Assembly: GCA_003226295.1 (NCBI GenBank)
Contig: CP029803.1
Span: 1,296,211 to 1,360,210, forward strand
Origin: Candidatus Moanabacter tarae
GTDB lineage: Bacteria > Verrucomicrobiota > Verrucomicrobiia > Opitutales > UBA2987
Direction: 5' to 3'
DNA length: 64,000 nt
The number at the start of each line of letters is the position of its first letter. The first letter of the stretch is position 1. The translations under genes were made by a program, and so were the position numbers. This document shows, one piece after another, positions 10,672 through 14,616 of the stretch. A model generated the notes under the pieces. The model saw nothing but the letters and a program-made list of their open reading frames with translations, did not search any database and had not been told where the DNA came from.

Positions 10672-12045
10672 TTAAACCATACTCGTGGGATCGAGAGCTT
10701 GATCGATCGTTTCTTCATCGAGCCATCCTTTTTCAAGAAGAACTTGGCGCAGAGTTTTGTTTTCTGAATAAGCAATTTTTGCTACTTCGGCAGCCCGATC
10801 GTAGCCGATATGGGGATTCAAAGCCGTTACTAACATGAGTGAATGTTCGACTAAATTACTGCATCTTTCCTTATTCACTTCGATCCCATCGATACAACGG
10901 TCCGCAAAAACCTGGGCCCCACGACCAAGACAACCAATAGCCTCGTGCAAAGAATAAGCAATCAGAGGGATTGTGACGTTGAGCTCGAAATGACCATCTC
11001 TCCCGCCAACAATCACCGAATGACACAAGCCCATGCTGTAAATCGCGACCTGAATCAGCATTTCACTCATCACCGGGTTCACCTTTCCAGGCATGATAGA
11101 GGATCCAGGCTGGGTTGCCGGAAGATTTAGCTCGCCCAATCCAGACCGTGGACCTGAACCTAACATTCGTACATCATGGGCTATTTTAGTGAGACTGGCA
11201 GCAATAGTATTGAGGTGGCCGGCAACTTCAACAGCATCATCCCTGCCCCCTTGTGCTTCAAAATGATTATCTGCTTCCCGGAACTTAATCCCAGTTTCCT
11301 CGCTTAATAGTGCGACTACTTTTGCCGCGAATTCAGGATGGCAATTGATTCCCGTCCCAACAGCAGTTCCTCCGATCGCTAGCTCCTGGAGAGCCTCGAT
11401 AGCTCGATTCGCTCTCTCCACACTCTTGTTCACTTGGGTAGCATATCCTGAAAATTCCTGTCCAAGGGTGAGAGGAGTAGCATCCATTAGGTGAGTTCGA
11501 CCAATCTTTACGATCCCATTCCACTGCTCCGCTTTCTTCAATAGCGAAGATTCCAACTGAATGAGGGAAGGCACTAGAATGTTATTTAATGCTACCGCAA
11601 CGCTAACATGCAGTGCTGTCGGCACTATGTCATTAGAAGACTGACCCATATTAACGTCGTCATTGGGATGAATAGGAATACGCGATCCAATCTGTTCACC
11701 TACCATCTGACTGGCGCGGTTAGCAATTACCTCATTGATATTCGTGTTAGATGACGTCCCCGAACCAGTCTGAAATACATCGACTGGAAACTGCTCAGCT
11801 AATCCCCCTTCGGCTATCTCTCTGGCAGAAGATCTTATCAACTCCGCCTTATTCGGGGCCAGCTGCTTTAGATCTTCATTTGCAGTTGCGCAGGCCGATT
11901 TTACAAGACCTAGACCTCGTATGAATCCCTCCGGCATTCTATGACCACTGATAGGAAAATTGAGGACCGCCCGCTGAGTAGAAGCCCCGTAGAGCGCTTC
12001 GTCTGGGACCTCCATCTCTCCCATGGAATCCTTTTCCTTTCTCAT
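10672..12045 (-). CDS. fumC: Class II fumarate hydratase
   Basis: FumC interconverts fumarate and L-malate in the TCA cycle, without an iron-sulfur cluster. The 457-residue protein has the fumarase/aspartase superfamily signature GSSIMPGKVNP at residues 314-324, TGSGTSSNTNINE at about 93-105 and GRTHLMDATP at 182-191. All are typical of FumC rather than aspartase, which has different substrate-loop residues. The start follows the stop of the HtrA-like gene by only 3 bases, so it is most likely the distal gene of the sigma-factor operon; an internal promoter cannot be ruled out. Confidence 0.96.
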   Translation of the reverse strand: MRKEKDSMGEMEVPDEALYGASTQRAVLNFPISGHRMPEGFIRGLGLVKSACATANEDLKQLAPNKAELIRSSAREIAEGGLAEQFPVDVFQTGSGTSSNTNINEVIANRASQMVGEQIGSRIPIHPNDDVNMGQSSNDIVPTALHVSVAVALNNILVPSLIQLESSLLKKAEQWNGIVKIGRTHLMDATPLTLGQEFSGYATQVNKSVERANRAIEALQELAIGGTAVGTGINCHPEFAAKVVALLSEETGIKFREADNHFEAQGGRDDAVEVAGHLNTIAASLTKIAHDVRMLGSGPRSGLGELNLPATQPGSSIMPGKVNPVMSEMLIQVAIYSMGLCHSVIVGGRDGHFELNVTIPLIAYSLHEAIGCLGRGAQVFADRCIDGIEVNKERCSNLVEHSLMLVTALNPHIGYDRAAEVAKIAYSENKTLRQVLLEKGWLDEETIDQALDPTSMV

Positions 12046-12048
12046 TCC

Positions 12049-13209
12049 TTAATCTTCCTCCGTCGATTCTCTATCATTATTTCCTTCTTTTCCTGAGACA
12101 ACATCGTCAATTTCTGATTCACCTTTTTCATTCCTCAAAAGCGGAGCCTCTAACACTGCTTCGCCTGTTCCTCTGTCATTGGGTTCTTCAAAGGAAAGAC
12201 GCCGCAACGGCTCATCCTCAGGCCGAGCAATGACAGGAACTGTAAAATCAAGTAACTCTCCATCTCGACGTACTCGAACTCCGACGAACTGATTTTCGCG
12301 TAGATAGAAAACCGCTTCACTGACATCACTTACGTCTCGGATTTCACTATCTCCAAGTGCAACAAGAACATCACCGGAGAGTAATCCAGCCTCCTCAGCC
12401 GGAGTTTCCGAAGTTACCTTTTCAATAACCACCTGGGAACCTTCCTTTCTAGAACTTAAGGGCTCAACTTCGATTCCTATCCATCCGTAGTTGATCTTTC
12501 CAGAAAAGTGAAGATCGTCACGAATCCTGAGCGCAGCACGAGCAGGTAATGAATAGGATCCCTGAACTTCAACCGGGAGCGCGTAAACCAAGATACCCAC
12601 TAACTTTCCGTTAAGATCAAGCAGAGGCGATCCCCCCTCACCTGGCCCACCAGGTATGTCGGTTCTAATATAGGGTACGGGAAAGATATTAGACCCAAAA
12701 CGGCTCTCTGTACCAGTAACAAGCCCGAGGGAAGGACTCGGTTTAAACTCGAGAAGAGCGCTAATCCTTAGAACCATTGTGCCTGCAATAGGCAACTCAG
12801 GGGAATCTGTTAGATGGAGGAATCTGAAGTTAGATGGAATCGACAAAACCCTAAGTAGAGAGATATTAGTATAGGAATCACCTCCTAGCATTTCCGCCGC
12901 ATAGGAAATTTCTCTGTGCACAATCCAAATACGGTCAGCACCTGACGTCGAATTTGCGTTAGTCATGACGTGTCCATCACGACTGATGAAAAACCCGGTT
13001 CCTATGTCCACACGAGTTTTACCCCCTTCTCCTGCGTTTTCGAAGGCGGCACTGACTCGGACCACGGCATCGCGATTCTCCTCATACACCTCTTGGATTC
13101 GTCGTTGAAGACTTAGGAAATCTCCTTCGTCTTGAGCCTCCACTAATCCAAAAAGACAGAGTCCTAGAAATGCCAGATAAACCCATCGGGTATAGAATAA
13201 GCTAGCCAT
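12049..13209 (-). CDS. HtrA/DegP-like trypsin-fold pseudoprotease with PDZ domain
   Basis: The fold is HtrA-like: a signal peptide (MASLFYTRW then a hydrophobic core ending VEA), a trypsin-like domain with GTGFFISRDGHVMTNAN, and a PDZ domain (IGIEVEPL through DVLVALGDSEI). An acidic C-terminal tail follows. Aligning it to active HtrA shows all three catalytic positions changed. Counting from the longest frame, the His of TNAH is Asn134, the Asp before the ALL motif is Asn163, and GNSGGP reads GEGGSP so that Ser is Gly240. I therefore infer a non-catalytic sensor or chaperone. I chose ATG at 13209 because AGGA lies 8 bases upstream; the open frame extends back to 13353. Confidence 0.85.
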   Translation of the reverse strand: MASLFYTRWVYLAFLGLCLFGLVEAQDEGDFLSLQRRIQEVYEENRDAVVRVSAAFENAGEGGKTRVDIGTGFFISRDGHVMTNANSTSGADRIWIVHREISYAAEMLGGDSYTNISLLRVLSIPSNFRFLHLTDSPELPIAGTMVLRISALLEFKPSPSLGLVTGTESRFGSNIFPVPYIRTDIPGGPGEGGSPLLDLNGKLVGILVYALPVEVQGSYSLPARAALRIRDDLHFSGKINYGWIGIEVEPLSSRKEGSQVVIEKVTSETPAEEAGLLSGDVLVALGDSEIRDVSDVSEAVFYLRENQFVGVRVRRDGELLDFTVPVIARPEDEPLRRLSFEEPNDRGTGEAVLEAPLLRNEKGESEIDDVVSGKEGNNDRESTEED

Positions 13210-13385
13210 CAGCAAATTCCTAGAAAGACAATACAAACCCCAAAAATAAGAGTCTACCTTAAGATGTCTCACGTGCAGTCGCTCGATACTCATCAGAATC
13301 GTTACGATATACAACTTAATTCCAAGTCTGGAACCATTAGAAAAAAGAATCAACGGGTTGCGAGCCAGATAGATTCCCCAAATTC

Positions 13386-13967
13386 CTAAAAGTACTGCAA
13401 CGAAGGTGCCGAAACGAATCGCACATCATCACGTACAGGAATTCCCTGAATATTCGAAGGCGGCCGAGACTCAGGGATGGAGGACAATGCAGTAAACGTG
13501 CGAGGCATTAGGTTTTTCTGATAGGAAAGTTCCTTTTCTTGCAGCACCTCAATGACTTCGATAACGAAAGTTTTTTGGAGTCTCGGAGAACGGAATATCG
13601 TAAAGTTTTGGGATTGTCGCGACTCAACTAATTGCGGTCCAGTCGACAGCTCAACTGGTTTTGCACCAGCTACCCTGTGTTCCAGCGCCTCATGCTCCTT
13701 TATCGCTGCTCCGTTTTGAAGAACAATGTAGACCAAAGCCGCTACTGCCGCAGCAGTAACAGAGACAGAAGTCGCTAAGCGGATGAAAAGCATCCGAAAG
13801 CGAGAAGGGTTCCAAGGTTCCTCGCTCACCAAAGCTTGCAAAGTTCTCCGGCGCAAGTCCCGATCAAAGTCCTCCCAAAATTTCACCGATGGCCGCTCAT
13901 TCCGTTTCAGCCGGAGGACATCCTCGAGGCTTACTTTCGGGCGGCTTTCTTTAAGATGACTATTCAT
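13386..13967 (-). CDS. Probable anti-sigma factor, single-pass membrane protein
   Basis: A 193-residue protein encoded 16 bases after the ECF sigma factor. It has a basic cytoplasmic N-terminus of about 60 residues (including LRLKRNERPSVKFWEDFDRDLRR), one transmembrane helix at about residues 63-84, and a periplasmic region of about 110 residues. No zinc-binding HxxxCxxC motif is visible, so it would be a non-ZAS type. I infer an anti-sigma role from topology and position, not from a recognised domain. It would tether or release the neighbouring sigma factor in response to an envelope signal. Confidence 0.7.
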   Translation of the reverse strand: MNSHLKESRPKVSLEDVLRLKRNERPSVKFWEDFDRDLRRRTLQALVSEEPWNPSRFRMLFIRLATSVSVTAAAVAALVYIVLQNGAAIKEHEALEHRVAGAKPVELSTGPQLVESRQSQNFTIFRSPRLQKTFVIEVIEVLQEKELSYQKNLMPRTFTALSSIPESRPPSNIQGIPVRDDVRFVSAPSLQYF

Positions 13968-13983
13968 TCGAAACCTGGAACTC

Positions 13984-14616
13984 TTAATCTATGTAGGCCT
14001 GTAAATAAGCCTGGAGCTGTTGCTTGGCGTAGTGAAGTCGTGATCGAACTGTTCCTATGGAGCAGTTCATGACCTCCGAAATCTGTTGATGACTAAGCCC
14101 TTCAATTTCAAAAAGCACCACTACTGCTCTATGTTTAGGAGACAATTTATGCAGTGCTTCGTTCAATTTTTCCTGAAGTTCGCCGAGAAGAACGGATCGA
14201 TCAGAATTCGTCCTAGTCACTAATGCTTCGATGATTTCAGCAGAAGAAACTTCCTCGCTGATCTTTTCGAAGCTAAAGAAATGACGCATTCTATTTTTCC
14301 TTAAATTGGTCAAAGTGGTATTGATAGCAATACGATAGAGCCAAGTAAAAAAAGAAGATCTACCTCGGAAACGCTTAAGCGAGCGAAACGCCTTGATGAA
14401 AGATTCCTGAGTAAGGTCAGCGGCATCCTCACGGTTGGAGGTAAGATTGTAAATTATGGAAAAGAGCCGTTCGCGATACTTAAGCACCAAGTGATCAAAC
14501 GCTTCAACATCACCACTTTGAACTCGACGCACGTATGCAAGATCATCATCAGTCTGTTCTGCCGAGCCAAACGACCTTTGGGTTAGAGATTTTTCAACTG
14601 CCACTGATGAATGCAT
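13984..14616 (-). CDS. ECF-type RNA polymerase sigma factor (RpoE/AlgU-like)
   Basis: A 210-residue extracytoplasmic-function sigma factor. Region 2 includes FDHLVLKYRERLFSIIYNLTSNREDAADLTQESFIKAF and the helix with FRGRSSFFTWLYRIAINT (about residues 84-101). Region 4 includes LSPKHRAVVVLFEIEGLSHQQISEVMNCSIGTVRSRLHYAK, which binds the -35 element. Region 1.1 and region 3 are absent, as expected for ECF factors. It heads a run with the anti-sigma-like gene, the HtrA-like gene and fumC, resembling the algU-mucA-mucD type of envelope-stress locus. Autoregulation is likely, but I could not define its promoter. Confidence 0.93.
   Translation of the reverse strand: MHSSVAVEKSLTQRSFGSAEQTDDDLAYVRRVQSGDVEAFDHLVLKYRERLFSIIYNLTSNREDAADLTQESFIKAFRSLKRFRGRSSFFTWLYRIAINTTLTNLRKNRMRHFFSFEKISEEVSSAEIIEALVTRTNSDRSVLLGELQEKLNEALHKLSPKHRAVVVLFEIEGLSHQQISEVMNCSIGTVRSRLHYAKQQLQAYLQAYID

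Follow-up and report, generated by a model that had tools for sequence, protein, structure and literature searches.

The window, by which we mean the whole 64,000-nucleotide stretch of DNA that was analysed, belongs to a genome of 2.63 Mb in a single contig, and carries on its minus strand the genes sigE, anti, pHtrA and fumC in this order (Table 1). The product of sigE is certainly a member of the ECF sigma factors: the Pfam domains Sigma70_r2 and r4_2 were both detected above cut-off, its best relatives in the PDB are the sigma-H (AlgU) and RpoE chains, and its best NCBIfam model is TIGR02939 (RpoE), yet the score stays under the equivalog cut-off of that model. A scan of named genomes with sigE recovered loci in Opitutaceae, Puniceicoccaceae and other Verrucomicrobiia, and on this gene similarity the genome is placed in Opitutales, class Verrucomicrobiia. 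For pHtrA, the ATG at 13209 appears better placed as the start codon than the TTG at 13353, because it has an AGGA upstream and opens a normal signal peptide (MASLFYTRW...VEA). A sigma-70 promoter scan returned six sites, fewer than in shuffled sequences, and hence gives no information. The fumC gene ends the sigma operon in many families of Opitutales and lies directly after anti where pHtrA has been lost (L041, L045, L048, L083-L085); it thereby places a metabolic enzyme inside an envelope-stress operon.

Table 1. Genes and features of the sigma factor operon in the window
Feature	Positions	Strand	Description	Basis or remark
sigE	13984..14616	-	ECF sigma factor, 210 aa, RpoE/AlgU-like	
anti	13386..13967	-	single-pass membrane protein, probable anti-sigma factor, 193 aa	orthologues in same operon position
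anti tail PSLQYF	13389..13406	-	C-terminal, candidate PDZ ligand	
pHtrA	12049..13209	-	secreted pseudoprotease of the HtrA type (386 aa), trypsin-like fold and one PDZ	
pHtrA signal peptide	13135..13209	-	aa 1-25, ...GLVEA/QDEGD	read from sequence
pHtrA Asn86	12952..12954	-	catalytic His position	alignments
pHtrA Asn115	12865..12867	-	catalytic Asp position	alignments
pHtrA Gly192	12634..12636	-	catalytic Ser position	alignments
pHtrA Arg182	12664..12666	-	position of DegP activation-cluster Gln200	alignment
pHtrA PDZ domain	12223..12489	-	carboxylate-binding loop YGWIGIEV	PDZ_2, 54 bits
fumC	10672..12045	-	start codon 3 nt past pHtrA stop	read from sequence

The protein encoded between sigE and pHtrA matches no Pfam family above cut-off in the window. 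Its relatives in the same position elsewhere in the class carry an N-terminal zf-HC2 domain above the Pfam cut-off, which contains the zinc anti-sigma motif Hx3Cx2C (PMC7406223), and this homology makes the protein from the window a probable anti-sigma factor; the sequence-only reading had called it anti-sigma-like, a label that can be raised accordingly. In these relatives zf-HC2 is followed by a segment of the form LLxLKRxExP…F/Y, which is also seen in the protein from the window. The zinc-binding part itself is gone from the order to which the window belongs, leaving two short cytosolic helices in the protein from the window, and non-zinc anti-sigma domains (ASDs) are known (PMC7406223). 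An AlphaFold2 model places cytosolic helices at residues 14-47 and a TM helix at about residues 54-85, and leaves about 108 residues unstructured; its confidence is low (mean pLDDT 66, pTM 0.27), as expected for disorder.

Alignment of pHtrA with the canonical HtrA of its own genome, in which the triad lies in the segments TNLHVV, RTDVAVL and NPGNSGGP, places Asn86, Asn115 and Gly192 at the positions of the catalytic His, Asp and Ser. When its profile is aligned with the solved chains of DegP-like proteins, the same three residues fall there, so that the substitutions first read from the sequence hold up in both comparisons. They extend across the clade: among 61 pHtrA homologues the His is absent in all, the Asp in 60 (with Asn in 39 of them) and the Ser in 51, the nucleophile position being otherwise taken mostly by one of G, I, A, V and P and sometimes by another residue, and none of the 61 has an intact triad. 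Intact HtrAs of the phylum, 24 in number, have the His in 24/24, the Asp in 23/24 and the Ser in 24/24. In a tree of these sequences, which does not include MucD itself, one branch (SH-aLRT 100) separates all 61 pHtrAs from the 24 intact HtrAs, which fits one origin of pHtrA.

The loss is not confined to the triad. The activation cluster of DegP includes Thr176, Ser183, Arg187 and Gln200 (PMC11642142). At the position of its Gln, Arg is found in 61/61 pHtrAs and Gln in 24/24 intact HtrAs; the Val177 position is Pro in 58 of the 61 homologues, and the equivalent of Arg187 is kept in only four. By these counts the allosteric apparatus for turning on proteolysis is rewritten in pHtrA as well. Such changes bear on the notion that pHtrA remains proteolytic by means of an unusual active site: a Ser does occupy the nucleophile position in 10/61 sequences, but the His is lacking from every one of the 61 and the Asp from all save one, the ten included, and with the activation cluster also altered we regard residual proteolysis as very improbable.

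The scaffold is otherwise preserved, as had been claimed for its fold, signal peptide and PDZ domain. The trypsin-like fold and the C-terminal PDZ of active HtrA/Do proteins are both present and the His-Asp-Ser triad is missing: Pfam Trypsin_2 (50.8 bits) and PDZ_2 were detected above cut-off, an AlphaFold2 model reached a mean pLDDT of 88 and a pTM of 0.79, and its best Foldseek matches in the PDB are DegP, DegQ and DegS; DegS structures with YQF peptides are found among its matches. The x-phi-Gly-phi loop of the PDZ retains its Gly in 60/61 pHtrAs, with mostly hydrophobic flanks. Scores against specific models are nonetheless low, namely 124 bits for the Do family (TIGR02037, cut-off 416) versus 434 for the other HtrA of the genome, 71 bits for DegS (cut-off 423) and 24 bits for MamO (cut-off 800). 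No Pfam match to the MucB/RseB domain was obtained in sigE, anti or pHtrA. An apparent giant pHtrA fusion in one genome (G004, a frame of 2716 aa) was rejected, as the frame is an assembly gap of N.

Most of 52 genomes of the order have an orthologue of pHtrA, with 32-58% identity, and matches stronger than those to canonical HtrAs were noted in the wider class, in dozens of additional genomes; the named-genome scan with the single pHtrA protein as query retrieved no relatives. The sole pair with unsaturated dS (G090/G072, dS 0.25) gives a dN/dS of about 0.10, and other pairs range from 0.03 to 0.19, values that are unreliable at their dS above 1. Together, the spread of orthologues in the order and the dN/dS of about 0.1 rule out chance or pseudogene decay, and on these comparisons pHtrA is a working gene under purifying selection. 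The order sigE-anti-pHtrA is kept in most sampled Opitutales and in 24 of 25 sampled loci of the class, the exception being an incomplete locus. As regards conservation the sequence-only proposal for this lineage holds up, but its scope was drawn too narrowly, for this is no local oddity but a family of Verrucomicrobiia at large and of one genome from another class. In the latter (G157, locus L204), whose class belongs to the same phylum, the operon runs ispB-sigE-anti-pHtrA, the triad is likewise dead and anti ends in DYSF, through either an older origin or transfer. The remaining HtrAs read outside the class have intact triads and no adjoining sigE.

Departures from this arrangement were seen in several genomes. 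In a 95% complete genome (G010, locus L091) pHtrA lies directly after ispB, and sigE and anti were not found. In two others pHtrA lies apart from sigE-anti (L034/L086 in G037; L035/L087 in G051), and the anti tails are still AIF and NVF. The genomes of family f16 likewise have a pHtrA that is unlinked to sigE-anti.

A distinctive feature of the anti-sigma factor is its C-terminus. In 58 of 62 operons with an adjacent pHtrA its last residue is Phe or Tyr, and it is also aromatic in both cases in which pHtrA lies elsewhere in the genome; the remaining 4/62 tails are non-aromatic. Such a residue ends 1/83 sigE, 0/60 pHtrA, 0/13 FumC and 0/24 IspB proteins from neighbouring genes, which together with the 48 ORFs of the window (4 with aromatic ends, 8.3%) served as background, and 2/32 ORFs downstream of sigE-like genes of other, mostly proteobacterial, bacteria. 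At the 8.3% background the binomial probability of the observed ends is about 1e-57, which is a description and not a test because the sequences are related. Outside the order the ends include VHF, LSF, VAF, LAF, LRF and VDF, mostly after Y(D/E)xx. A conserved end in an otherwise poorly conserved and predicted-disordered periplasmic part looks like a short ligand motif. DegS-type PDZ domains bind the C-terminal ends of outer-membrane proteins (PMC8103513), and of nine outer-membrane proteins that were examined from this genome, eight have Phe or Trp as their last residue. Judged by its sequence, the Phe/Tyr end of anti is the signature that PDZ domains of HtrA proteins bind, and we consider it the best clue to the mechanism.

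The sigE tree requires three losses of the adjacent pHtrA, and in two of them the aromatic tail has disappeared too: the seven families of one clade (f55, f37, f44, f62, f58, f34 and f46), and likewise f51, lack pHtrA and have an aromatic anti end in 0/8. Among the named loci, a partly independent set, three with pHtrA end in LVY, FTF and IAF, and those of subdivision-3/Limisphaerales without pHtrA have non-aromatic ends. The third loss is that of the Opitutaceae (f13 in 11/11 genomes; named loci 6/6), in which pHtrA is gone and the tail stays as xKF or xRF, so that an aromatic tail exclusive to pHtrA-bearing genomes had to be rejected; another factor can use this tail, or may always have done so. 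In the same family anti is lengthened to about 270-355 aa through a longer periplasmic part (L083-L085, L099-L106, L119-L121, L123-L125). A naive Fisher test of tail against pHtrA, with f13 included, gave p 0.0005, and a test on phylogenetically independent pairs, underpowered with three pairs, was not significant; since three pairs cannot reach significance, the association is best termed suggestive.

What is understood of envelope-stress sigma signaling comes largely from Proteobacteria, in which proteolytically active HtrAs detect unfolded outer-membrane proteins. The algU-mucA-mucB-mucD system of Pseudomonas and the rpoE-rseA-rseB system of E. coli (with DegS and RseP) share with the present operon an RpoE/AlgU-like sigma factor, a membrane anti-sigma factor with a periplasmic part, a secreted third component and the involvement of an HtrA-fold protein, and the circuit resembles them in layout and probably also in purpose. 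Unlike in those systems, no RseB/MucB-like gene lies here between anti and pHtrA, the HtrA-fold gene lacks the triad, and the anti-sigma factor ends in an aromatic tail like that of outer-membrane proteins, which is absent in 30 of the 32 ORFs downstream of the mostly proteobacterial sigma genes. The likeness to algU-mucA-mucD in the sequence-only reading was apt as regards operon position, but pHtrA is no MucD that has mutated: elsewhere the genome encodes a Do-family HtrA of canonical type, and pHtrA forms a clade apart from intact HtrAs with invariant residues of its own. With DegS and AlgW it shares a single PDZ per chain and an extracytoplasmic location, and the binding of aromatic-ending ligands seen in DegS is proposed for it as well; however, these are active site-1 proteases. 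Given its missing triad and its scores far under the DegS and Do-family cut-offs, pHtrA is neither MucD nor DegS. MamO likewise combines a trypsin-like fold and a degenerate triad with a non-catalytic role and retention by selection, but acts in magnetite formation and binds metal, whereas pHtrA belongs to a sigma operon and scores weakly with the model of MamO.

A protein of this kind is more likely to sense or scaffold than to degrade, and because its neighbouring membrane partner ends in the type of tail to which such proteins bind, pHtrA probably acts in sensing or clamping and not in cleavage. The reading that we favor, with a probability a little under one half (about 0.45), makes pHtrA a co-anti-sigma factor of the periplasm that works like RseB/MucB and uses a dead HtrA as its scaffold, with a PDZ that grips the tail of anti until unfolded outer-membrane proteins displace it. 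The PDZ would bind the Phe/Tyr-ending tail of the adjacent anti-sigma factor while the body of pHtrA would clamp or shield the disordered periplasmic region against a site-1 protease, much as RseB binds the periplasmic region of RseA and blocks DegS cleavage (PMC10202637). The C-termini of misfolded outer-membrane proteins, also ending in Phe/Trp, would compete for the PDZ; once the tail is released, anti would be cut in a DegS-like step, possibly by the Do-family HtrA, and then by RseP, a homologue of which is present in the genome, and this cleavage would free sigE. We infer the tail-PDZ binding, the competition by outer-membrane proteins, the direction of regulation and the identity of the proteases from these sequence features. 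Its extension to the whole class, namely an envelope-stress circuit in which a dead HtrA would have replaced RseB, and unfolded outer-membrane proteins would turn the circuit on by competing directly with the tail, itself like theirs and held by its PDZ, for one site, is put forward more tentatively still.

Several observations count against a clamp: the genome with a pHtrA in which neither sigE nor anti was found, the Opitutaceae tail without pHtrA, the four non-aromatic tails, and the lack of significance with three independent pairs. The second of these would be accommodated if the aromatic tail were recognised by an active protease with a PDZ, the Do-family HtrA or a different one, and if pHtrA modulated this protease as an adaptor or decoy with no direct grip on anti. 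The genome does have one canonical HtrA that passes the Do-family cut-off (TIGR02037), and the degenerate HtrA MamO is known to activate MamE-dependent proteolysis (PMC4794232). Nevertheless, two other lineages lost the tail along with pHtrA although canonical-level HtrAs remain, and it is pHtrA and not the Do-family gene that is linked to sigE and anti; we consider this arrangement, the main rival of the clamp, unlikely. The genomes with pHtrA unlinked, or with no sigE and anti found, would in turn suit a general periplasmic chaperone of outer-membrane proteins that is a sigE target outside the sensor, the tail being a mimic of such proteins read by something else, and proteolytically inactive HtrA variants do retain chaperone activity and protect cells (PMC11642142). 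A mere target gene, though, is not expected to show tight three-gene linkage across most families or co-loss with the tail in two lineages, and a protein with a single PDZ is not expected, judging from the architecture of DegP, to form DegP-type cages; we hold this role to be slightly less likely still.

HtrA pseudoproteases and sigma/anti-sigma operons are already known, and as far as the open literature shows it is their combination, its depth and the tail that are new; among the open-access papers searched, none was found that brings HtrA, PDZ and a sigma factor together in Verrucomicrobia. A non-cutting HtrA appears to be in use in most of a bacterial class, beside an anti-sigma factor with the same kind of C-terminal tag. 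This offers a simple test of a pseudoprotease as a sensor, together with a natural series of losses, and it gives a conserved operon, for which no described function was found in the open literature, a likely partner. The canonical Do-family HtrA of the genome (L092; G000:C1:2560181-2565025) lies about 3 kb from bamA, a proximity that may couple the active protease to outer-membrane protein assembly. In family f30, which is probably Akkermansiaceae, the HtrA-like protein encoded next to anti has decayed further, having no Trypsin_2 match and a PDZ that is still recognised (L117, 3572-4450; L118, 3506-4372), and the anti tails of these two loci are IEM and QEF.
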